From contig JAQGDQ010000142.1 in assembly GCA_030141605.1 (NCBI GenBank), positions 434,001 through 498,000 on the forward strand: a DNA stretch of 64,000 bases, given 5' to 3'. The translations under genes were made by a program, and so were the position numbers. Each line of letters starts with the position of its first letter. Within the stretch, counting starts at the first letter, position 1. Positions 2,993 to 51,179 of this stretch are shown here, one piece after another. Below the pieces are notes generated by a model, which saw only the letters and a list, made by a program, of their open reading frames with translations, was not told the DNA's origin and ran no database searches. This stretch comes from Tubiluchus corallicola (Eukaryota; Priapulida; Priapulimorpha; Priapulimorphida; Tubiluchidae).

Positions 2993-5366
2993 GTAGGCGT
3001 TTGTTTCCTAAATAATCAATAAATAACTGATAAATAATTAAAAAAAATAATGTATTTAGATAATTATTGCTTCCTTACTTGGTGCTGTAAATCGTATATA
3101 AGGCAGTCGTAGTATAAAACTGACATAAAGTTTACTAAAACCAACATGTAAAGAAACTTTAGGAATCTTAAATTCAACTAAAACTAGAATACATTTCACT
3201 TTTATTAACCTTCTCAATGCTAAATGGTGGCTGCAAGATAGGAAATCAACTAAAAATTCACAAGTTTTTTTTCTTTTCCAGTCGAAGACGATTCTGTGTG
3301 CCATAGCACAGGGATTTGGACGAACCCATTGGTTCGTATAATAATCAGCTTTGCAAAGATGTGAATGAAGGAAGTCTATGCTAACTGAATTTATGCAGCT
3401 GGCAAAAATAATATTGTGATTGTAGAAGACATAGTGCTGCAAAATGGTTGTAACTTCAGCTGGATCTCTGGATTTTTGTCATATCATCTGCTTTCTCAAT
3501 CAAAGATGTTCGTGTTTGACTGTCGTGCATACGTCATAATTATGCATAATTGTTCACTGTAGAACTCTGTATAACTGCTTGGTATGCAGTTCATTTTTAA
3601 ATATCTATATGCAAGTTAATTAGAGGAGAGAAACGCATTGAGTACTTGCTGTTCAGAAACGTCTAGTCCCCAAGAGTTTTATAATCATTATGGCTGCCCA
3701 GTTGCAATGTTGCTTCGAGTGCTGCGTGTTATAGAATTAGGTGTGTTTAGATTCATTGTCTTAAGGATGCTTATAGTTTCTATTCTCTTACGTTCCACTG
3801 CTAAGACTTGAAGGAAAATAATTGTAAGAAGTTTGACTGAGAGAAGAATTACGTTGTGTATACATAGCTCTTGCTGCATAAGTAGTATAATTTTGTCATG
3901 CCTGTGTTATATTTGAAATGTGTAAGCAGTATTATTTCTTTGTATCTACATTCATATCTCTGTATTAGTTTTGAGCTTGAAAGAAAGAACTAGTCACTGA
4001 GTATATTGGATTTATTTTACTGTTATCACTTAAATTTAGAAAAATATAACACAGAAATTTGCAAAAAACTCTAGAAAGCATAAATCTAAAATATACTACC
4101 TCTGAAAAGAAATTTTCAGGCATGGTGGTTGCGCCATTCGTTTGAAAATCGTGACTTTTCGTAAACACGTCGTGGTTTTCCGTAAGCGCGCTACTTAAAC
4201 TAATTCAAACTTCTGAAACTTACCTAATGTTCAAGGGAAAATGTTACAAAATCAGTTATCTATTTTTTTAAAGCTTATGATACTTTTGACGAAGATTGAC
4301 AGTGCGCTACTTTTCTTCAAGACGAATGACGTCATTGGAAGTAGAATGGGCATTGAAATCCCGACTTTAAAGTTTTTTCATGCTTTTTTCCTTCTAAGTT
4401 TTTTTGTGAATGCTGAAATAAACCTGACTTCCCAGAAGGCTGGTCTTTACTTTAAGCTCTGCAGAGGTGGTCAGAAAGCACATACTCCACTAGTGCAGAT
4501 CTTTTTCACATCGAAAGCATTTTATGGCAGTGAATTCCATTTGCTCGTTTTGTGGCATTTGAGGCATTTTCTTGTTCCGTTTGAGCTTGTATATAATTTC
4601 TTTCCCATTAAATATTCACATGATGGTAGTGTGATTAAAGGTTGTGAAAATGTTCCGGTTTGTTTCTAGCCAGAGAACCAACTTCATGAAATTCGTCTGT
4701 TGTTCTGCATCAGCTCTTCTTCACGGTAATGTCTGTACAGATTTTGTCATGTGCATATGTGTAAATCACCATTTGATCACCTTGCATCATGGATTTCGTA
4801 TTTTGCTCCAGTTTATAAGGTTAAATTGATATTACTTTAAAATGAGTGCAATGACTGTATGAGGTTTGATTAACAACTTAAACATTATGCAAGTTATCTT
4901 AGATATTTTGCTTCTGAAAGTTTAGGAAAGTGACATCTAATTTCGTTTACTTTGAGCTTGTCTTGTACTTTATTTCGTTGGTCGTTGTTAAGAATGACTT
5001 CCTGTAGTTACAGAGTGAGTGTTTTCACATCTCAGAGACCAGTTCATTTCTGTGCTAAGTGAAACCTCTCAGTGTTGATGGGTCTTCTCAAGCTCTTTGG
5101 AAAAAGAGTTAGGGTTGCTAGTGTTTGAGCATTCAGATAAATTAGTTATCACCATATTATGCTGATTGGGACGACAGAACCTCGTAGTGCTAGATAATTG
5201 TTGCAGTAATTTTAATTTAACTTTATGAACATTGAGGTCGTTCAAGGGCTGAATACTGTAATAAAATTAAAATATGTAAAGTGACACTTTTAACACTCAT
5301 TCTTTAACATAAATTATTTGTTGTTATTTTTTATTAGTAGTTTTTAGTTGCTTTGACTAAAGTTTA
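2993..5366. other. No gene supported
   Basis: AT-rich sequence. An open frame on the plus strand at about 4241-4669 could encode 142 residues, but it has no recognisable domain and a skewed F/L-rich composition. A short segment near 4670-4734 has splice-like ends but no family resemblance. Confidence 0.4.
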
Positions 5367-5481
5367 CAATTCCCCACACACAAGAAATTAGTTCCAGAAA
5401 CGGATTAGTATTAGGGTTTGGATTAGAATTAGGGTTAGGATTAGGACTAGGGTTAGGGTATTTAATTTGTGTGGGGAATTG
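5367..5481. repeat. Interstitial telomere-like repeat inside an inverted repeat
   Basis: Between about 5405 and 5460 the plus strand carries degenerate units of TTAGGG/ATTAGG (for example ATTAGGGTTAGGATTAGG). The block is flanked by inverted arms CAATTCCCCACACACAAG and TTTGTGTGGGGAATTG. The arms suggest a small foldback element that captured or amplified telomere-like sequence rather than a chromosome fusion scar. Confidence 0.7.
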
Positions 5482-8294
5482 GAAACTCCTTCCATTGCTT
5501 TTACTGAGTAAGACACAGATCTGTATATTTTGTAGCTTTAGGAACGTGGGTTTTTTATTCCACGTTTCTGCATTCAAACTTCTACTAGTCAGTTCATTTT
5601 TTGTAAATTACCATCGTTGTTGCCCATGGTGGTAGTTATCTAGTCATACCTATGAAATGTTATTGGTGCCGTATGACTCAAACAGTGCTTGGCTTTCTCC
5701 TGTTTGTTACTTAAGGTCTATTCACATAGCAAACAAACCGTTTTGAAACTGTTTTGAAAACGATTTGCGGGTTCACACAGTAATCCAAAGCTTTTTCAAT
5801 ATTTTTCCATAAAAACATTTTGAAACCTACCTTGGAGGTTTCAAACAGTTTTGCAGGAAAAGCCTTGATGCCCATGACTGTGTGATTCGGTGTGAACACT
5901 CAAAGTTATTAATGCACTAATTATATTTCAATGGAATTGGTTTGAATTCATTTGTTTAAGCAGTTTTTTGACATTTTAATATAGTGAAGCAACTACATAT
6001 TCCAACAATTTCAAAATTTTTTATGTCTTTATGTCCATATTATTATAAAAATAATTAGAGTTTAGCTGGCATACTTCTCTGCAAATAGCTTTTAGGTTAA
6101 CAAAGGTTAAAGTTTATTATGCATAGTCAGCCTCAACAATTAGTAGGTCTCATCTGTGAAAAGCTAGAATTAAATAACCTAAAGGTTCATGTTAAACACT
6201 GATTAATCTTACAAAATTTTAAGTGGTTTAAGAAAGACTTAGCAGTAGAGTATGCGAGTTCTTATTGCTAGGTTATGGGTTCAAATCCTGACTGGCTAAA
6301 AAGATTTCGGCATTTATTCTTTATCGCTATCTAGCCCATTAAGCTAATTATGGTTTAACATAAATCGAGTGGATTTATTGGTTCTGCTTTTTCTCGAGAC
6401 CCTCGAGTACTGCGAACTTTTGAGGGACCATGACGGTGATTTGAGGACTAGGAGTAGAACTTTACTAGTGCCATACTGTTCATGTTGCTTGAGTTTAACT
6501 TACACTTGGAATGTGATCTGTCTTCATGCGTTTATGCAAATCTTTCTAACCGAGATGATTTTTGCTATCGAGGTGTCAAAAGTAAGATTTGTAAAAGAAT
6601 CTCTACTATATCTCAAAAACGGTTTATTTTGTATTCTTCAAATGCTAAACAACATTGAAATTTTTGTGTAAGTATATAATTATATATTAGCATTAATTTT
6701 AATATATTCATTTTAAAGGTGCTTATCAAAGACCAAAGACATTGTTAAGCGAGATATCGGTCACATAAGCGCACTTGAATGCTGTGTAGCTATTCGCTTT
6801 TAATTCATGGCAGTTTGCTTTTCATAGTTAGTGTGCCCACTGTAGCTAAGGACTTAGTGAATTATGAAAAATAGATAACGTGTTAGTATTTAAAATAAAT
6901 TAAGCAGTTGGATTGTTTAGAATTTTGACCATTTAATATTCAAGATAAACTAAATATCTGCTCTTACTTTTATGATTTGCTATTTCTGTCATTGTCAACT
7001 TTAGCGGCTAAGTTTAGAAATTGTAATTCTCTCACATGTGTGCTATAAATTAAAATACTTTATTCAATTTTCATGCTAGATGAATTAATCACGAATTTTG
7101 GTGTAATTTCTATAGTGTAATTACTGTTGCATATACATATGTAACTTATATACTTGTGAGATTTGAACTGCTTGCTTAATTTGCTTATGCCATTAATCAT
7201 GTTTTATTGAATTGTTGAACTAAAATATCATTTTACTATATTTGCTGTCCCGTTAAATGCCTTCAATTACCTGGATGTAATTTAGTCCATTGATTCTCTG
7301 TAAAATGGACCTGCTGAGTTTAATATTAGCATTTTTAACAATATATTTCAGTTCACACTTTGTTGACTTTGTATTTCTCATGCAAACCCGCATATTGCCT
7401 AACAGATGATACAGTTTTCCCCAGGCCCTGCTCTTAACGTATACATATCTTCTGGTACATAAATGTGAAAAGATGAGCCTTTACTAGCAGGCGCCTATGA
7501 ACAACATATTTAAGGAGATAATACAGTTAAGAAGATCTGCTTCGGAAGGCATGTTACCTTGCTTTGGTATTGTCAATAAAGCTATTATTCTAGATTACAT
7601 TATTTGTTTTAGTCATTTCATATGTCAGTATTAGTAAGAATTTGTGCATATTTTGCTTTTTTATTTTTAAAATTAAACATTACGTGGCTGCTATTATTGC
7701 CATGTAGTAGGAAAATCGGGGTGCAAAATAGTTCCTTTTCCACTATTTGTTAGCACCCAGATATGGGATTTTTTCCTATTGATACTTTTCGTTAGCCGGA
7801 TGCACTTGAATATTAATTATTTTGAAATAGTTATTAATACGGTATGTTAATTATTAACAGAAATGAAGTTTTTTTGGTGTACTATGTTAACTGTTAATTG
7901 GTGGCTTGTGGAACTTTTGTTTTAACTGTTAATCAACTGTGACTGCAAATCTCTTTGTGAATCTCGATGTAGTTCTGATATTGTTGCGTTCTTCTAATTA
8001 GTATCAATGCCATTTGATTAATTCTAATTCTGTGTTTTGGCTAGTGCTTCCAAAGTTCTTGTGCAGAAATCTCAGCTGTAGCAATTGCATCGTTTGTATA
8101 AAGCTGTAATTTTTGTGCGTTGTGATCTTTTTCCGTCGCTGTTTGTTAAATTATTTTACATTGTATTATGTGTATGTCATTATTAAGTATGTCGTTGTTA
8201 TTATCGATATAAGAGGACATAATAAACATCTTTATCTTATAAATCTTATCTAATTTCTCAAGGTGAATGTTTGTTTTATACATGGTGCGTGTGT
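5482..8294. other. Non-coding stretch with minor repeats
   Basis: There is no supported exon. A diffuse inverted structure at about 5715-5895 (ends TCTATTCACATAG and TTCGGTGTGAACA) may be an old MITE. AATAAA hexamers occur near 7575 and 8219 and could serve a plus-strand gene that ends here. The tRNA-like element at 6232-6298 is listed separately. Confidence 0.4.
6232..6298 (+). repeat. tRNA-like SINE or tRNA pseudogene
   Basis: A near-consensus pol III B box (GGTTCAAATCC, 6278-6288) lies about 30 bp after an A-box-like TTAGCAGTAGAG (6239-6250). I could not fold a convincing acceptor stem or CCA end, so this is better read as a tRNA-derived SINE fragment than a working tRNA. Confidence 0.45.
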
Positions 8295-8342: not shown

Positions 8343-11300
8343 TCAAGACTTCCCTAGGTCTGAATTGGTTGGTTTTTCCCGGCATTCGTCTACGGAACTT
8401 GTGGATGGGTCCTGTCGCACACGTTTAACTTTTCTTGGTTCTAATTTTGTCTGTCTCATTGTTCCCTTGATCAGATGCCTGATGAACGCTGGTCGTTCTT
8501 GTTGGATTCGCCTTCGTGCTTCTAGCGTGATTTTCCGCACCTCATAGCTCAACAGCCGCTTCCGCTCCACCGGATCCAGCATCTGTCGCCTCTTGGCACT
8601 TGCTGCTATTGCTGACCTGCCACCAAAGGTCTCGCGGAGTCCCTGAAATGCAAAGGTTGTGCAAAAATAACACAATGTAATGCAACAAACTGTGGATTTC
8701 ATGGGTGGATGAAGCAGCTGACCCCAGAGACAAAATTTAAATCACCAACGGATATATCAGGCTAGTTGGAATTAGTGTGTGTTGAGTTAATAGATCAATA
8801 ACACTAGTATTCACATTTCAACACACACTAATTCCAACTTTACCTATTGTGTATGCACTACTGTGCAAATATAGAAAAATTGTCATTTTCAAACAAGTTA
8901 AGTAACAGTGAAAGAACCATTATGTATAGGGGTTTGACGCATTGCTGTTCTGTTACTGCTTATAGGACAAGAAAACGTTTTACTAACATAATGCTAAAAA
9001 ATTTGTCTTGAAATTTTGCATCACTTACATGCTGTCTTATTGCATACAGAGCTTGCGTTAAGAGTAATACTGTATAAAACTTGTAAATTTAAACTCTTGC
9101 AGTGACTATTAGGTGCAGTCATTTTTCATTTTAACAGTAGGTCATTTGAAACGAGTCTACGTAACAATGCTTAAAGCTTGAAAAAATAATCACAGCATTC
9201 GTGACACACATTTCACTAATTAAGGAAAAGTATAATTACTTTATCTTGTCAATAGTATTAATAATGTGTTTTTTATGAGTTGGTGCTTCCTGAGAAGGTG
9301 AGTCATTTTACCAGTTGGTGCCGACATTCTAAATAACTAAGAATTTTCTAGTTACACAAGTCTTTCAAGCAGGTAAGCATAATGCCAAGTCAATGAAGTA
9401 ATGTAACTTTGTTTGGAAAGTTTTTGTGATGCACTTTAAAATTGTCTTCTCTTCCTAATTTCATTTGCTGCTAACTTTCTTCCACGATGGCATTATAGTT
9501 TAAAAGAATTTAGGAAGAACTTACTTTCAGCTCGTTTTCAATCTCAATCGCAGCTTGATCGAGCAGGTAGTTCCAGGTATTCTGCTGCAATAAATTCACC
9601 ATAGATGATGAGCAGGACTTTGGTCTTATTTTAGAGGCAACACTTGACGTTTCTCGAACAGATACTTCCGAGCCGGAGTGGCTGCTTGCAAGCAAAACTG
9701 CAAAATCATTTTTTGATTATATAAGCAGAAAATGGGTCTTAAATTAGCCACTTTATCATATTTCGTTATCTAAGTAAGATGACCAATTTTATATATTTTG
9801 TGTTCAGTGCAGCTTTCAGATACAGATAACAGAAATAAAAATAACTGCCAGCACCCACTTAAGCAAAGAAGTGGCTTTTATTTAGACACAGCTTCTGCAA
9901 CGTTTCGACACGGTTAAGGTCATGTTCATGCAACAATTCACCTAAATGAAAATACGGTGTAAAAATGTACAAAAGTCAACATTGTGACAGACAAACATGA
10001 CAAATACTAAAAAGTAAATGTACATATCACGTGCTACAAAACCAAATGACAGAAAAATAAAGTTATGTTATTCCAGCACAATTCATTCTCTAACTAATGC
10101 CTGACACAATGTTGATCTTTGTACATTTTTTCCACTGTATTTTTATTTACGTGGATTGTTGCATGAACATGACCTTAACCGTGTTGAAACGTTGCAGACG
10201 TTTGTGTCTGAATAAAAACCATGTGTTTGCTTAAGTAGATGCTGGCTGTAATTTTTATTTTAAGAGTTCGTTTTCCTCATCATCAATCAGATAATAGATT
10301 TTCAACTTGCGGTAGCTTTTGCTGCAATCTTACCGCAATAAAAGCGAAAATTGCTCCTGTAAAGGTCAGTCTAATGCTTAATACTATAATGACATTAATA
10401 ACTGTCATTCTGACAAAGCGCCAAAATTATTTGCTTGAAATTCCACAAATGTGAGGCAACATTTTCTGTCCTCAAATATTGTTTGACACTAGGGAAGACA
10501 TTATGAATTACCATTAATCTGGGAAGTAATTTTGTTCAAAGCTGGTCCGGTGATTCCATACAAGCGAGACTTGGAGCTGATGCCATCAGAAGCCTTCAAA
10601 CACAAATCTATGACTCTGTTCTTCGCACTGCTGTAGAAAACAACGTGAATATTAAAACGTCATGCAAGTCTGCTGATGTGGAACACACAATATCCTATTC
10701 CAAACTTGCGTTTTGAGCCGTGCTTTAAATAGGTACCATGTCTTCCAAGTTAAAAGGTAGGACTGTTAATGGGATTGTTAATAGGTATGATGAATAAGAT
10801 GAATGATCATCATGAATATTTGCAGGAGACTCTGCAGTCTGAAGAATGCTTTATGTGTAAGAATCAAATATTTGCTTGATTACTATTACTGTCAGCTCTT
10901 ACTTTAAAACTGGCAGGCCTATAGTTTAATCTGTTTTATTTGGGAAGTCTCTGAAATCAAATGTGTTAATTGCTGTTCAGCAGACTTATTGCAGCACGAT
11001 TGCTATTTGTGCTAAGAATTTGCTGTAGGCAAGATTGCTATGCATGCAGAAAACTTATCATAGCAAGATCATTATTTGTGCTAGGAATTTGCCGTAGCAA
11101 GATTTCTTTTGTCGATTACAACTATCTCTAGGTGTCAGTAGGTATAAGTGTGTGGTCATTGTCAAGACTATTGTCCCCATTCGGATAGGTAAACTAATCA
11201 TCTTCATGTTCATAATCACCGTTTGCAGCTCATAAACTCTATTTCTCCACTTTCAAGTTCTTTGGCACAATCGAGCATCTCTTTTTTGTTTCTTTTGACA

Positions 11301-14300
11301 TCCACTCACCAGATGACTTATGAATATGTGACACGTCTGCAAGCGCAGGACACAGCTGCAAGATTGCTACTTATGCATTAAATTTTTAGCAAATTTTTAC
11401 CTATGGCATTTTGCTACAGCTGTTAGCATATCGGTGACTCTGGTAGGTGGTCGTGGTTTGCCATAAGAGCGTTGTTCGCAGGCGAATCCATGCTCAATCT
11501 CTTGCAAGGTTTCAGGATGGCGGATCATTACTGTGGAACGAGCCTTTTGAACTGCAAGTGAGGAAATCTGATATTAAAAATGAATGATTTTCAAATGGAG
11601 TAAGAACTGCAGGCATTGCTGTTGCTAGATGATGGTGTAACTAGAGCAGCTGGTGCCAGGTTCAGATGCTTACCTGTCGTAACAGAGCTGGTGTCACTGG
11701 ATGATGGCTTAACTAGAGTAGCTGCTGTTAGGTTTAAATACTTACTTGTCATAACAGAGCTATTGTTGCTGGATGACGGAGTAACTAGAGTGGCTGATGC
11801 CAGGTTTAGATGCCTACCTGTAGTGTTGGTGTCAGTGGATGATGGTGTAACTAGAGTGGCTGATGCCAGGTTTAGCTGCCTACCTGTAGTGTTGGTGTCA
11901 CTGGATGATGGTGTAACTAGAGTGGCTGATGCCAGGTTTAGCTGCCTACCTGTAGTGTTGGTGTCACTGGATGATGGTGTAACTAGAGTTGCTGATGCCA
12001 GGTTTAGCTGCCTACCTGTAGTGCTGGTGTCACTGGATGATGGTGTAACTAGAGTGTCTGATGCCAGGTTTAGGTGCCTACCTGTAGTGTTGGCGTCACT
12101 GGATGATGGCGTAACTAGAGTGGCTGATGCCAGTTTTAAATGCCTACCTGTAGTGTTGGTGTCACTGAATGATGGTGTAACTAGAGCGGCTGATGCCAGG
12201 TTTAGCTGCCTACCTGTAGTGTTGGTGTCACTGGATGATGGTGTAACTAGAGTGGCTGATGCCAGGTTTAAATGCCTACCTGTAGTGTTGGTGTCACTGG
12301 ATGATGGTGTAACTAGAGCGGCTGATGCCAGGTTTAGCTGCCTACCTGTAGTGCTGGTGTCACTGGATGATAGTGTAACTAGAGTGTCTGATGCCAGGTT
12401 TAGCTGCCTACCTGTAGTGCTGGTGTCACTGGATGATGGTGTAACTAGAGCGGCTGATGCCAGGTTTAGTTGCCTACCTGTAGTGTTGGTGTCACTGGAT
12501 GATGGCGTAACTAGAGTGGCTGATGCCAGGTTTAGGTGCCTACCTGTAGTGCTGGTGTCACTGGATGATGGTGTAACTAGAGTGGCTGATGCCAGGTTTA
12601 AATGCCTACGTGTAGTGCTGGTGTCACTGGATGATGGAGTAACCAGAGTGTCTGATGCCAGGTTTAGCTGCCTACCTGTAGTGCTGGTGTCACTGGATGA
12701 TGGTGTAACTAGAGTGTCTGATGCCAGGTTTAAATGCCTACCTGTAGTGTTGGTGTCACTGGATGATGGTGTAACTAGAGTGTCTGATGCCAGGTTTAAA
12801 TGCCTACCTGTAGTGCTGGTGTCACTGGATGATGGTGTAACTAGAGTGGCTGATGCCAGGTTTGATGGCTTGTTCAACCAGTTGGAAGTCTTGATGTCTT
12901 TTATTCGGATTCTAACTGCAGGGTCACGACAGAGCATCTTGTGAACTAAAGTACGACAGTCTGGAAAAACAAAATTCAGCAACATCATTGCCAAATGTAG
13001 CATAGCTACATAATTCGAAATTCGTTTTTCAAAAAAAGGTCAAGAATGTAGTGTATGATAGCCTCGTTTGAGTAGCTGTGCCATAAATAATTATATTACT
13101 GTTATTATCTATATGGGCAACATATGGAATACTGGCACTGCAATAGAGAATACAGTATATATTGTAAACTAGGCTGAGATCCGCAACTCACTGGAAGACG
13201 TTATTATTTTGATGATTGTAACGGGACTGCCTAGACCGGTATCTATTTTACTACTGTCATCTTTTTTGTATAAGATTTGTTACTGTAGCGACTATCATGC
13301 AAACTTGGTCTGCTAAAATAGTATAAACTGACTTCTCATACAAAAATTTAATGTAGATGATGTACTGCATGACAATTTTAATATAAAAAAGCTTTAAAAA
13401 GTTGTTTAGATAAAAGCAGTTCCTGGCGAAACAGGCAATTTTTGGTGTCTCTACCTGTGAGCAAACGTCATGTGAATCACTGTGCACCGATGGTCAATAC
13501 TGCGTGAACACTGCACAAAGTGCTTCAATGTATTTGTTCAATAATTAGATAAGATGCTTGCCTTTTGTAAGTTCTTTTGTGAATTTCACAGGTTCCTTCA
13601 TTGATTCGCGCAGAATATCGCTGGATTGATCTTGAAATGGTAATTTTCCACACAACATTCCATACAGACACACTCCTAAATTAGAAAGAAACTGTAGAAA
13701 TAACGGCATGGTATGATATGTAGGAAACTTACGTTAGAGCCGTGTCTGTATGCTGTGCAGGGGCGTAGCTAGGTTGTAAAGTTAGAGGAGCAAGCACATA
13801 GAAGGCGCCATGACACATACCAAGCAATTTTTAACGCACTGATTATGCATTTTAGTTTTGAATTTAAAATCAAATCAAGGGCAAAATACCGTTTTAAAGG
13901 AAGTACATAATTGCCATTTTGTATTATTTTAAAATTAAAACGCAAAAAATTGCAGTAGGCTCATCAATCTCAAAACAATGAAAATATGTTATATTATTTA
14001 TTTATTTTAATTTTAAATGTAAAATGAAAACAAAACGAAGCCTATATTATGAAAAATGTATCCCGAAGGCACTACAACAGTGTCTTTCGTCCAGGGCTTC
14101 ATTCTAGCAAAGTCAGATAACTTTATTACAATTCCTTTCAGTAGCCAACTCTCTTTCAATGGAGAGCAAACCTAACCCAGGTAATTTATCCTCGTCCACG
14201 GCAGAACGAAGGTAGGACATTATCTGTTTCAGCCGACTAAAGGATTGTTCAGCTACAGCGCTAGGTGTTGGTACAATGTGGACAGGGTAGCATAAATGGA

Positions 14301-17212: not shown

Positions 17213-24686
<7,474 letters not shown>

Positions 24687-32655: not shown

Positions 32656-33580
32656 TAATGATATCTTGATGTCTACTGTTTAGGGGATAAATTGTGTCAT
32701 CTAAAACATTGAGGTTGAGACTGTTAGTATTTAAAGTGTTATTGCTGAATTTGTTATTGTATCAGAGAATGAAATTATCCAACTATGCCTGACACGCAAC
32801 CAACATTAGTAAGTGGTCATCCAATGTAGATAGACACACGTGTTATGGTTGTCTAGCTGTCTGGAGCTGTGGATGCGCATTCCACTCATTTGACAAACTT
32901 TCCGAGGCTCTCAGATAAACTGTTTTGTAGTTTAAAACAATTGCCATAATCCGCCTGGTCACTTCACTTGCAAGTCGAAAATAATTCAATGAAGGTCAAC
33001 ACACCTTCATATAATGACGAAACTTGCTTTTTACTGACTAAAAACGCATAAAAAAGCCGCAAAGCCGGTTGTAAAAAAACAATGCATTTTTTTACTTCAC
33101 AGCCGAAAAGCCAACTTTTCCGTTGGTACTATTCAGAATTAAGCTACGACTATACTTCTTGTTGTTGCTTATTCCTGGTCAAGATATTTGAATATTTCCG
33201 GGAAGCATAAAACTTCAACTTTTGTAGGGTAATAATTTTGTAATTCGGCACCGCACTTTCTAACACCGGCCCTGAAAAAGGTTAACTTTTTACGTTGACT
33301 AACTGCAGTCTACTGTTCTTCGACTGCACTTATTTGTTGAGAAACGTTTTTGCTAACTATGCATGTTTGATCGCTTGGTGGAATGTGAGCCAATTCTGCC
33401 TGTCCAAGCGTAACTTAGCTAGATATGCCTAAAGCATTCCTCAATATAGTACACTGAACTTATAATACAATGCTTAAGTTGTGTCAGTAGCTCTTGTGGG
33501 TGATTTTGATTGTAGCGTCTGTTACTTTTGTGCCGTTGAGACCGTCTACTGCTGCTGTAAAAGCCCTAAAAGTGTAAACT
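32656..33580. other. Upstream region of UNC93A-like gene
   Basis: No exon recognised. The 25-bp run GCCTGTCCAAGCGTAACTTAGCTAG-like is shared by about 31968-31994 and 33397-33423, a short dispersed repeat. Confidence 0.45.
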
Positions 33581-35008
33581 ATGGAACTTGAAGCATCTGA
33601 TATGCAAACGACTGTGGCACCTAGTGGCCGCAATGGCAAATTGTGGAAGAAAAAACTGAAAGTGCTGAAGGACATTATATTAATCAGTGTTGCTTTTATG
33701 GTACTTTTCACGGCATTTCAATCTGTGCAGAACTTGCAGAGCAGCTTAAACCGAGACGAGGGATTAGGAGTGGCTTCGCTAAGTATCATATATGCCTCCC
33801 TGGTTCTCTCGTGCCTGTTCCTGCCTAATTTTGTCATCGATAGACTGGGTTGCAAGTGGACAATAGTCATTGCTATGTTGGTGTATGGATTGTACATGTT
33901 AGCAAACTTTTATGCATCATGGTATACTCTGGTTCCTGGTGCTATACTATTAGGCGCAGCAGGTGCCCCCTTGTGGTCTGCCAAATGTACCTATCTTACA
34001 GAAATCTCCCCGGAATATGCAAATTTAGAGGGGGTAACTACAGAAACAATTGTCAATCGATTTTTCGGCATTTTCTTCCTATTCTTCCAGAGTGGACAAA
34101 TTTGGGGAAACCTAATTTCCTCCTCTATATTTAAAGTTACGGCACCTAACGATACCATACCTGTGGAGGTAGCAATGTCTTACTGTGGAGCAGCGTTTGA
34201 TAGTTCTACTAGTGAGGGCAGCCTCAGCGATTTCAAAAACATTACAAACCCAAACTTGAAAAGACCACCTAACTCTCGGGTCATGCTTTTAATGGGAATT
34301 TATTTTGGCTGTGCAGTGGTGGCAGCTTTTATAGTAGGTGTCGGCGTTAACCCTTTGAAAAAGGACATGGGTAAAAACATAAAACGTGGAATAGATTTCA
34401 GTCTGTTCATTGCAACAGTCAAGCATTTAAAACATGTGGATCAGTTACTTCTTATACCTTTGACAATATACAGCGGTGTAGAACAAGCATTTATAGCTGG
34501 AGATTATACACTAGCATTTGTTTCGTGTAGCTTGGGTGTCCACATGGTGGGTTATGTGATGATTACTTTTGGAGTCACCGATGCTGCCGGGTCGTTTCTG
34601 TCAGGTCGGTTAGTGCAGTATGTCACTCGAATTCCCATTTTTACATTCGCATTCCTAGTTCATTCGGCAACAGCATTCGTTCTTTTATACTGGCGACCAG
34701 ATCCAAGCAAAATTGTCGTTTTCTTCATCCTGGCAGCTTGCTGGGGTCTCAGTGATGCAGTGTGGCAAACCCAGATCAATTCCTTGTATGGTGTTTTGTT
34801 TGGCCACAGTGCCACAGCAGCATTTGCAAACTACAGACTTTGGGAAAGTCTTGGCTTTGTGGCTGCATATGCTTACAGTAAATTCTTAAGTACCAAGGTG
34901 AAACTGTGGATTGTGATTGGCAACTTACTAGCAGGAGCTGTAGGCTATACTGTTGTAGAAATTAGATATTATGTAACTAAACAGAGAGACACTTATGAAC
35001 TGAAGTGA
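33581..35008 (+). CDS. UNC93A-like major facilitator family protein, intronless
   Basis: 475 aa in one exon, close to human UNC93A (about 457 aa). An in-frame TAA lies two codons before the ATG at 33581, fixing the start. The N-terminal cytosolic segment has about 30 residues, then VLKDIILISVAFMVLFTAF begins the first helix. Family signatures: LQSSLNRDEGLGVASLSIIY, LPNFVIDRLGCKWT, NFYASWYTLVPGAILLGAAG, APLWSAKCTYLTEISPEYAN, NRFFGIFFLFFQS, IWGNLISSSIF. About 11-12 membrane helices are visible with a loop near residues 180-235. UNC93A proteins are plasma-membrane solute-carrier-like proteins; related UNC-93 regulates a potassium channel in worms. Transport substrate is unknown. AATAAA at 35100-35105 follows 92 bp after the stop codon. 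A broken paralogue lies 3.7 kb downstream. Confidence 0.92.
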   Translation: MELEASDMQTTVAPSGRNGKLWKKKLKVLKDIILISVAFMVLFTAFQSVQNLQSSLNRDEGLGVASLSIIYASLVLSCLFLPNFVIDRLGCKWTIVIAMLVYGLYMLANFYASWYTLVPGAILLGAAGAPLWSAKCTYLTEISPEYANLEGVTTETIVNRFFGIFFLFFQSGQIWGNLISSSIFKVTAPNDTIPVEVAMSYCGAAFDSSTSEGSLSDFKNITNPNLKRPPNSRVMLLMGIYFGCAVVAAFIVGVGVNPLKKDMGKNIKRGIDFSLFIATVKHLKHVDQLLLIPLTIYSGVEQAFIAGDYTLAFVSCSLGVHMVGYVMITFGVTDAAGSFLSGRLVQYVTRIPIFTFAFLVHSATAFVLLYWRPDPSKIVVFFILAACWGLSDAVWQTQINSLYGVLFGHSATAAFANYRLWESLGFVAAYAYSKFLSTKVKLWIVIGNLLAGAVGYTVVEIRYYVTKQRDTYELK

Positions 35009-38680: not shown

Positions 38681-39275
38681 AGGGTAAAAGCATAAAACGT
38701 GGAATAGCTTTCACTCTGTTTATTGCAACAGTCAAGCATCTAAGACATGTGGATCAGTTACTTCTTATACCATTGACAATATACAGTGGTATAGAGCAAG
38801 CATTTGTGGCTGGAGATTATACATTAGCATTTGTTTCGTGTAGCCTGGGCCTTCACATGGTGGGTTATGTAATGATTACTTTTGGAGTCACCGATGCCAC
38901 TGGATCATATCTATCAGGTCGGTTGGTGCAATATGTCACAAGAGTTCCCGTCTTCATTTTTGGATTCCTCATTCACTTGGCGACAGCGTTCTCTCTCTTA
39001 TACTGGCGACCAGATCCAAACAAAATCGTCGTCTTCTTCGTTCTTGCAGCTCAATTCTTTGTATGGTGTTCTATTTGGTCACAGTGCGACAGCAGCATTT
39101 GCAAACTACAGACTTTGGGAAAGTCTTGGATTTGTGGCATCATATGCTTATAGTACGTTATTGTGCACTAGAACTAAACTGTGGATTGTGATTTGCAACT
39201 TACTGACAGGAGCTGTTGGTTACACCATTGTTGAGATCAGATATTACGTGTTAAGAAGTTCTTGCAGAGTGACAA
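38681..39275 (+). pseudogene. Truncated, frameshifted UNC93A-like paralogue
   Basis: Highly similar to the last third of the UNC93A-like gene (34363-34985). Similarity starts abruptly at GGTAAAAGCATAAAACGTGG after TTATTCTAG, a possible splice acceptor. It reads in frame through VDQLLLIPLTIYSGIEQAF and GRLVQYVTRVPVF up to VVFFVLAA. There a 38-bp deletion removes the region encoding CWGLSDAVWQTQ and shifts the frame; after it the sequence continues in another frame (NSLYGVLFGHSATAAFANYR, then LWESLGF) to the homologous C-terminus. No 5' two-thirds is present. It is either a degraded tandem duplicate or the 3' exon of an intron-bearing paralogue. Confidence 0.88.
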
Positions 39276-39289
39276 CTGCACTTTCTGGC

Positions 39290-39615
39290 CTATCACAGTA
39301 GTGTAATTTTGCACCTTCTGACTCACGTAGTACTGTTATTTCATAGCTTCCGGCCGATGCAGTTGTGTGATTCCTTAGCTTCTGGCCACTTCTGCAGAAG
39401 TGTGTTTACGTAGCTCCTAGCTCACTGCAGTAGTGTGGTTCTGCAACTCGTAGATTTCTGCAGTAGTGTGGTTCTGTAGCTCCTCGTTCACTGCAGTAGT
39501 GTGGTTCTGTAGCTCCTCGTTCACTGCAGTAGTGTGGTTCAGTAGCTAGTAGTTTTCTGCAGTAGTGTGGTTCTGTAGCTCCTCGTTCACTGCAGTAGTG
39601 TGGTTCTGTAGCAGA
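39290..39615. repeat. 33-bp tandem repeat array
   Basis: About nine imperfect units of CTGCAGTAGTGTGGTTCTGT followed by AGCTCCTCGTTCA or variants. The array directly follows the UNC93A pseudogene and runs into the LINE remnant, with which it is open in frame on the minus strand (units reading ATEPHYCSERG). Confidence 0.9.
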
Positions 39616-39639
39616 ACAATTACTACATATCCTTATGAA

Positions 39640-39993
39640 AATATTAATAGGGTCATAGAACAACGGCATTTCAGTCACAATATCTTCATTATTTTTTAGA
39701 TTATTGGAAGTAGTATGGCCACTGTATTTAAGCTTGGGTACAACCAGCATCACCGTATCATTCAAGTGCACATGTCCTGGTATTGCTTGCCGCAGCTTAT
39801 TCGGCAAACAAATAGGCACTGATTTACCTGGACTGAAAATAACTTTGCTATTGGATGCAAGAATTTCACACCACTTTAGCAGTGATAGTATTGCTGTAAT
39901 AGAAGGACAAGTAGCAAGTGAAGCCAAACCATCTGCATATAAAATGTAGTTGATTTTCACGTTGCCTATAGAGCAACCAGGAAGACTGTTCAA
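39640..39993 (-). mobile_element. LINE reverse-transcriptase remnant
   Basis: The minus-strand translation contains INYILYADGLASLA, a damaged form of the YADD catalytic box, then SLLKWCEILA, KLKYSGHTTSNNL and DIVTEMPLFYDPINIFIRI followed by CSNCS. This is the palm-to-thumb segment of non-LTR retrotransposon reverse transcriptases (usual form KYLGH...D...E...LY...N.L.R.F..CS). The second catalytic Asp of YADD is Gly, so it is inactive. No endonuclease domain is nearby. Confidence 0.8.
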
Positions 39994-40716: not shown

Positions 40717-50483
<9,767 letters not shown>

Positions 50484-51179
50484 GATGAAAGTGCTATCAC
50501 GTAGTCTTTTCCACTGTTTGTTATTATAGTTTGAATTTTATATCACGTACTTTGACCTGGGAAAACATAATAATTATGGTACTGTATTATGTGTGACGTT
50601 TATGCAGCAGTACCTTCTTGCTTTGTTGGCTATAGATTATAAAAACCTCGTATGACGACGCATACAGTTAATATTTGCAGATTACAGCACGATTGGTGGT
50701 GCCTGGATGGATTGTTCACATACATATAGGTTTCAAGAATCAAAATACCAGTCATTGACAGTACTCTTCTAACGTAAGTCAGTAGTAAGTGCACATAGCT
50801 GTAAACTATAAAAATATAGGGTTATGTATTCCACAATCAAATTTGAGACTACTTTCGGCAGCTTGCGTAACTATTGCATGTAACTGCAAGTTAACTGAAT
50901 GACAGCTAAAGAGCAAAACTTTTGAGCATAGAGGTTTTTATATGACCGTGGTACAAGAAAATGTAATGTGGTACATATAAGGAAGAATAATCCTGCCAAT
51001 GTGTAGATAATTTCAGATCATATATTACCTAGTAGCTACTGTATCCTTTGTACGTGATCCTGGCATTATGATATCAAACGATCTTAAAGTTAATTTCTAA
51101 ATTAACTGTGTCGTAACTTCTAAAAAGCTAGTACAATTTTGAACATGTTATTTAGAATATTCGAAACTAGAAATGTTAA
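50484..51179. other. Upstream region of ARSG gene
   Basis: AT-rich with no coding segment. No clear core promoter element is recognised. Confidence 0.4.

Follow-up and report, generated by a model that had tools for sequence, protein, structure and literature searches.

The window analysed here, a 64,000-nt stretch of a contig from the genome of Tubiluchus corallicola, carries on its minus strand a protein kinase gene that was modelled as ten exons sharing a single frame; its 5′ end, at 17245, is open, and its stop is the TGA at 8345-8343. At exon 7 the model runs into a minisatellite whose units carry candidate 5′ splice sites. The gene and the array comprise the following features, in window positions:

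17245-13562 (-): exons 1 to 6, encoding a CAMK-type (AMPK/MARK/TSSK-like) kinase by the exon model and kinase homology
17245-17024 (-): exon 1, 5′ end open
16851-16747 (-): exon 2
16589-16443 (-): exon 3
15849-15753 (-): exon 4
15359-15228 (-): exon 5
13675-13562 (-): exon 6
12960-12808 (-): exon 7 if the first array donor is used, comprising the kinase domain end and 18 codons of unit 1
12862-11628 (-): donor-bearing minisatellite made up of sixteen 66-bp units, two 72-bp units, and one incomplete unit, from the unit alignment
11662-11591 (-): partial 19th unit, without a donor, ending in TGA 11593-11591; the C-terminus if the array stays unspliced
11551-11401 (-): exon 8, acceptor CTCACTTGCAG/TTC, which needs a phase-1 donor and leaves in phase 2
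9684-9525 (-): exon 9 (model), acceptor GCAAG/CAG picked for frame fit
8642-8343 (-): exon 10 (model), terminal, with the TGA at its end

A composite translation without exon 2 was found to match PF00069 in Pfam (E = 6.3e-57), and the best solved chains for the kinase include MARK2, AMPK alpha-2, and TSSK6. With a Pkinase domain, the VAVK lysine, HRD (as HRDIK), and DFG in the model, the predicted product is a CAMK-type protein kinase, its subfamily not settled. Array unit 1 begins right after the end of the kinase domain. Downstream, exons 7, 8, 9, and 10 of the model share one frame up to the stop at 8345-8343; exon 8 is supported by good splice sites, an open frame, and a matching phase and not by homology, while exon 9 lends the model weak support since its acceptor was picked for frame fit. 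The peptides of exons 8, 9, and 10, as submitted, matched zero Pfam families; a search of the genome for relatives of these exons returned three matches, all to themselves, with no second copy of exons 9 and 10; and a single PDB match (E = 1) was obtained against solved structures. The 601-nt intron 6 apparently opens with a GC donor, AAG/GCAAGC (13562-13561), no GT being seen close to the required exon end. Our literature searches, which were aimed at precedents and not at the locus, found no account of this kinase gene.

A preliminary description of the locus had reported about eighteen units of 66 or 72 bp, and the unit alignment agrees: sixteen short units of 66 bp each (12862-11807) are followed by two long units of 72 bp each (11806-11735 and 11734-11663), together spanning 12862-11663. 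The short units depart from their consensus 40 times, at 14 of 66 sites, and the only change in unit length within the array is one of 6 nt. A genome search that scored the best candidates only found no copies of the unit elsewhere. The donors discussed below are:

12808-12807 (-): donor of unit 1, the first and exon-proximal one, CAG/GTAGGC, the predicted main end of exon 7
12610-12609 (-): donor of unit 4, CAC/GTAGGC, weakened, the one exception among the short units
11746-11745 (-): donor of unit 17, CAA/GTAAGT
11674-11673 (-): donor of unit 18, the last in the array, CAG/GTAAGC, strongest by U1 pairing

The CAG/GTAGGC donor, within CTACAGGTAGGC, was present in 15 of the 16 short units, with unit 4 differing (CACGTAGGC), and the two long units carry GTAAGT-type sites, both as first described. 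The claim that the donors split a codon behind its first base likewise held for all 18 array GTs, and this is the phase that exon 8 (11551-11401) requires. At least seven of the nine donor consensus letters were present in 17 of the 18 units. Pairing energies were calculated with a U1 5′ end seen in two of six fetched U1 loci, both on the plus strand, and came to -10.7 kcal/mol in 15 units, -11.0 in unit 18, -5.1 in unit 17, and -4.3 in unit 4, compared with -4.5 to -8.7 kcal/mol for the gene's eight other donors. Thus 16 of the 18 array donors pair more strongly than every other donor of the gene, the exceptions being units 4 and 17. On both strands of the window, -10.7 was reached by 0.29% of 7,596 GT sites, and the array contributes 16 of the roughly 22 that do so. 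Between the start of exon 7 and exon 8 there are 66 GTs, among which the only others with at least five consensus letters, CTGGTTACT, CTAGTTACT, and TAAGTATTT, all lie within the array, in a different phase from its donors and with U1 energies of -2.6 or weaker; a single GC site with six consensus letters (TAGGCAACT, -2.9) is also within the array and out of phase. The seven GTs upstream of the array and the three past unit 18 have at most four consensus letters. As no comparable donor lies outside the array ahead of the exon 8 acceptor, any use of exon 8 would require an array donor. The array is predicted to be a VNTR laid over a 5′ splice site, in that it adjoins a coding exon whose candidate donor lies in the first array unit; a donor in the same register is present in nearly all units. 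The common phase and register follow from the copying of one unit whose length is divisible by three.

Such an arrangement might generate a ladder of isoforms, with the donors of many units used appreciably and the resulting kinases differing by multiples of 22 residues in an S/T-rich linker, and in that case copy number would tune the linker length of a signalling protein. In favor of this proposal, which we consider unlikely, the donors are all in phase, 15 of them share an identical core in similar context, comparable donors ahead of exon 8 are found only in the array, and the frame is open across all units. Extra conservation of the donor 9-mer over the rest of the unit was not found among the short units, however (1 of 9 sites variable, against 14 of 66 for the whole unit; P = 0.38).

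The choice of donor has a large effect on the size of exon 7. Use of the first donor gives an exon of 153 nt and an intron 7 of 1256 nt, while use of the last gives 1287 nt and 122 nt, respectively; the unit 17 donor leaves an intron of 194 nt. Internal exons 2-6, 8, and 9 measure 97-160 nt, a range that includes the 153-nt form, which counts for the first donor and against a 1287-nt exon. The latter would be expected if the last donor (11674) were used and the whole array translated as a coding repeat, its copy number then being a linker length polymorphism; this is a doubtful reading in our judgment, although no donor in the gene pairs with U1 more strongly than the last one and the sole unit-length change, of 6 nt, fits it.

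Whether the array is translated was examined through its reading frames and substitutions. One frame is open across the array on each strand. The sense frame runs from the kinase domain to the TGA at 11593-11591; on the plus strand, an open frame of 446 codons occupies 11604-12941. Because the opposite strand is also open, reading the array as coding is an assumption, and an open frame as proof of coding was ruled out by this 446-codon frame together with 365 open codons that lie off-frame in a PDCL3 array described below. Variants among the 16 short units were as expected by chance, with 6 synonymous and 11 non-synonymous (P = 0.48), which speaks against a translated array. The older units (17, 18, and the leading 48 nt of the incomplete 19th) were each compared with the short consensus. 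Their pooled dN/dS-like ratio was 0.50, with P = 0.026 by Fisher's test and P = 0.046 by neutral simulation, a value that counts in favor of a coding repeat. This third-position bias hints weakly at translation, present or past, of the array, its final partial unit included. At least one stop arose in 51% of the neutral simulation runs, so the absence of stops says little. In the opposite frame the non-synonymous ratios were also low (0.11-0.58); its third positions are those of the sense frame, and for that reason it is not an independent control.

The bias in the partial unit and the frame open from the kinase domain to TGA 11593-11591 would also be consistent with a terminal exon, the major transcript leaving the array unspliced and exons 8-10, which have no homology support, belonging to a minor form or to nothing. 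We regard this as very improbable: 16 strong donors would go ignored, exon 8 has good splice sites and a matching phase, and the first AATAAA/ATTAAA past the stop (12000-8000 scanned) lies some 650 nt downstream, at 10940, on the far side of exon 8. Less credible still is splicing within the array, with a donor in one unit joined to the AG of a later unit so that whole units are removed in frame, as an exitron or by the route of intron gain through AGGT duplication. AG/GT is present in 16 of the 18 units (all except 4 and 17), removal of multiples of 66 preserves the frame, and fission yeast offers precedents in which an intron was gained by tandem AGGT duplication, with a 24-bp AGGT unit (PMC4974935, available text). 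The kinase gene resembles that case in the tandem copying of AG/GT inside a gene; unlike it, where working acceptors in the units are needed, its units have acceptors that mostly look weak. When scored with a profile of the gene's nine acceptors, by which left-out real acceptors reached 3.5 to 11.1 in eight of nine cases and -1.3 in one, the AG of ACTACAG did not rank among the ten highest-scoring AGs of the array. The top array AG, at 6.2, occurs in one unit, and the common CATCATCCAG site (10 copies) scored 1.4.

The whole 343.5-Mb genome was scanned for three copies of CAGGTAAGT spaced by gaps of 20-50 bp. This pattern gave 378 matches compared with 24 for the reversed string, while a permuted control string gave 9, in three arrays, and its reverse 13; single CAGGTAAGT sites numbered 5468 compared with 2250 reversed. 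Matches cluster within arrays, so array counts are far below match counts: the first 100 of the 378 places fall on 13 contigs (C5, C24, C88, C217, C236, C265, C357, C417, C482, C507, C557, C598, and C620; loci L042-L054) and represent 14 arrays. Location at an exon end was backed by two-sided homology in two of the 14, in a phosducin-like protein 3 (PDCL3) and an SLC1 gene, and seemed suggestive by eye for the arrays of L043, L045, and L053; exon-end evidence was absent for the other nine. Perfect donors per unit ranged from 0.37 to 1.14 across the 14 arrays, and hence not every array retains donors as the PDCL3 and SLC1 arrays do. Periods were divisible by three in six of 14, near the third expected by chance (a period of 27 was assumed for L044). 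At L048, two arrays of one 44-bp donor-bearing unit (4245-4470 and 5250-5690) point in opposite directions, with about 780 bp between them, and may be part of a mobile element.

The PDCL3 array (L042) consists of 33-bp units between two exons of its gene; 42 of its 46 units begin with GTAAGT, and the 46 were cut without frame change. When the flanking exons were joined at the first donor, with the next-exon acceptor TTTCAG/GCAACAG, the product aligned to 7nvm_P over 75 residues (E = 2.3e-20) without an insert at the junction, the single 3-residue gap lying upstream of it. Read past the first donor, the gene frame meets a stop after one codon, and the array itself has 365 codons open in a frame other than the gene's. 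The SLC1 array (L054) sits where an SLC1 exon ends (PF00375, 7.3e-20); its 54-bp unit is repeated 19.1 times and contributes 19 perfect donors. Its first donor, joined to the next exon (acceptor TTTCAG/CATAAC), gave a gapless alignment to EAAT1 over 110 residues (1e-46), and reading past that donor again runs into a stop after a single codon. Protein homology points to splicing from the first donor in both genes, with arrays of perfect donors retained behind such exons as predicted intron, within the limit that the frame forces the first donor there and does not do so in the kinase gene. The PDCL3 array (33 bp, 365 codons) combines an open frame with a period that is a multiple of three and with retained donors, so such features are no proof of an isoform device in the kinase gene. 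What the preliminary description had said of the donors' strength, their phase, and the need for one of them if exon 8 is used stands, but its step from donors in each unit to a ladder is not supported, as both arrays need their first donor yet retain donors in most units. For a translated array, a further difficulty is that the non-coding PDCL3 array is just as open.

Several published systems bear on the choice among repeated donors. One older paper concerns a minisatellite in a gene that we take to be IFI6/6-16. To go by its title (cited in PMC2572611), the minisatellite units provide several donors, and it is from this title that the kinase array's likeness, donors supplied by units, is drawn. 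In the available text on human ABCA7, the intron 18 VNTR, of 25-bp units that start with the donor GT, contains the exon 18 donor, and its first GT is the canonical one (PMC5954066). Retention of one unit was observed there and was unchanged with VNTR length, while VNTR length is associated with omission of the following exon, as measured on RNA (PMC5954066). The kinase array is similar in adjoining an exon and including its candidate donor; it differs in that the 25-bp ABCA7 unit breaks the frame whereas the 66/72-bp units keep it open, and in being known from sequence, whereas RNA effects were measured in ABCA7. Human precedents for the use of later donors, including the one-unit retention in ABCA7, lend the proposed ladder some support. 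Against it, in minigenes spliced under exon definition, with introns of 365 nt, the upstream member of a pair of identical CAG/guaagu donors was the only one chosen (PMC9225289, in the part available). The same source gives the stronger donor as dominant in 86% of two-donor genomic events and reports downstream donor preference in the LS class (PMC9225289), LS being taken here as a long upstream and a short downstream intron. With an intron 6 of 601 nt and an intron 7 of 122 or 194 nt (donors 18 and 17, respectively), the kinase gene could belong to this class, in which case translation of the whole array would be favored. In human duplicated genes, internal tandem repeats located at exon-intron boundaries were described as elements that can be either kept or spliced out (available text of PMC2812944); the kinase array is likewise a minisatellite at an exon-intron boundary, unlike those human paralogs in that their novel introns arose through cryptic sites, not copies of a native donor. 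Minisatellites on exon-intron boundaries, some with donors in their units, are thus already known from human genes in these sources. In the available portions of the cited minisatellite papers, we found no precedent for an in-frame period combined with phase or for several donor-bearing arrays in one genome.

The reading we prefer, at slightly better than even odds (roughly 0.52), is that the minisatellite grew from the exon 7 donor, that mainly the first donor is spliced, and that the array is removed as intron. The array would have arisen when the junction of exon 7 and intron 7 was duplicated in tandem, the short unit consisting, to judge from the anatomy, of about 54 nt of exon end and 12 nt of intron start; since the unit spans both, every unit has a copy of a real 5′ splice site. 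Given that exon 8 is used, it would be joinable only through one of these copies. The spliceosome most likely picks mainly the first, at 12808/12807, giving the 153-nt exon 7, and the array probably leaves within the 1256-nt intron, as the two sister arrays and the published splicing data suggest. That this donor is the one mainly used, with in-frame leakage possible, we put at about even odds. Phase and period hold the frame open, so that splicing from the second or third donor would lengthen the protein by 22 or 44 residues and leave it unbroken; such leakage to later donors may happen occasionally and need not explain donor persistence, because units that copy one another can keep their donors. 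The recurrence of donor-bearing arrays in this genome speaks for the preferred reading as a whole. Counting for the first donor are the PDCL3 and SLC1 homology, the identical-donor minigenes (PMC9225289), and ABCA7 (PMC5954066), as far as the available text of the latter two goes. Counting against it are the greater U1 strength of the last donor, with stronger donors dominant in 86% of events, and the downstream preference of the LS class (both PMC9225289, available text), while the ratio of 0.50 in the older units (P = 0.046) counts against the array being intron.

It is also conceivable, though we hold it unlikely, that minisatellites often arise on 5′ splice sites in this genome and that chance phase and period have made the kinase array a graded isoform device. 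If so, 17 good, nearly identical in-frame donors would be chosen among by position alone, and changes in copy number would alter the proportions of the linker lengths. Together with the PDCL3 and SLC1 arrays, the kinase array offers a natural experiment in spliceosomal choice among 18 to about 40 near-identical donors, and the three carry a warning for gene prediction, namely that an open, donor-bearing tandem array behind an exon need not be coding.

Elsewhere in the window, a long UNC-93-like reading frame was noted at 33578-35005 (+), with a partial second copy at 38683-39150 (+) (PF05978). A frame at 39409-39993 (-) appears reverse-transcriptase-like by eye, with no Pfam match, and enters a 33-bp tandem repeat of ATEPHYCSERG-like units at 39392-39612. 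Two sulfatase-like exons (PF00884) were found in 43641-50537 (-), of which 48807-49073 scored above the Pfam cut-off and 50235-50537 just below it, and the frame at 43641-44057 (-) seems by eye to repeat a stretch.
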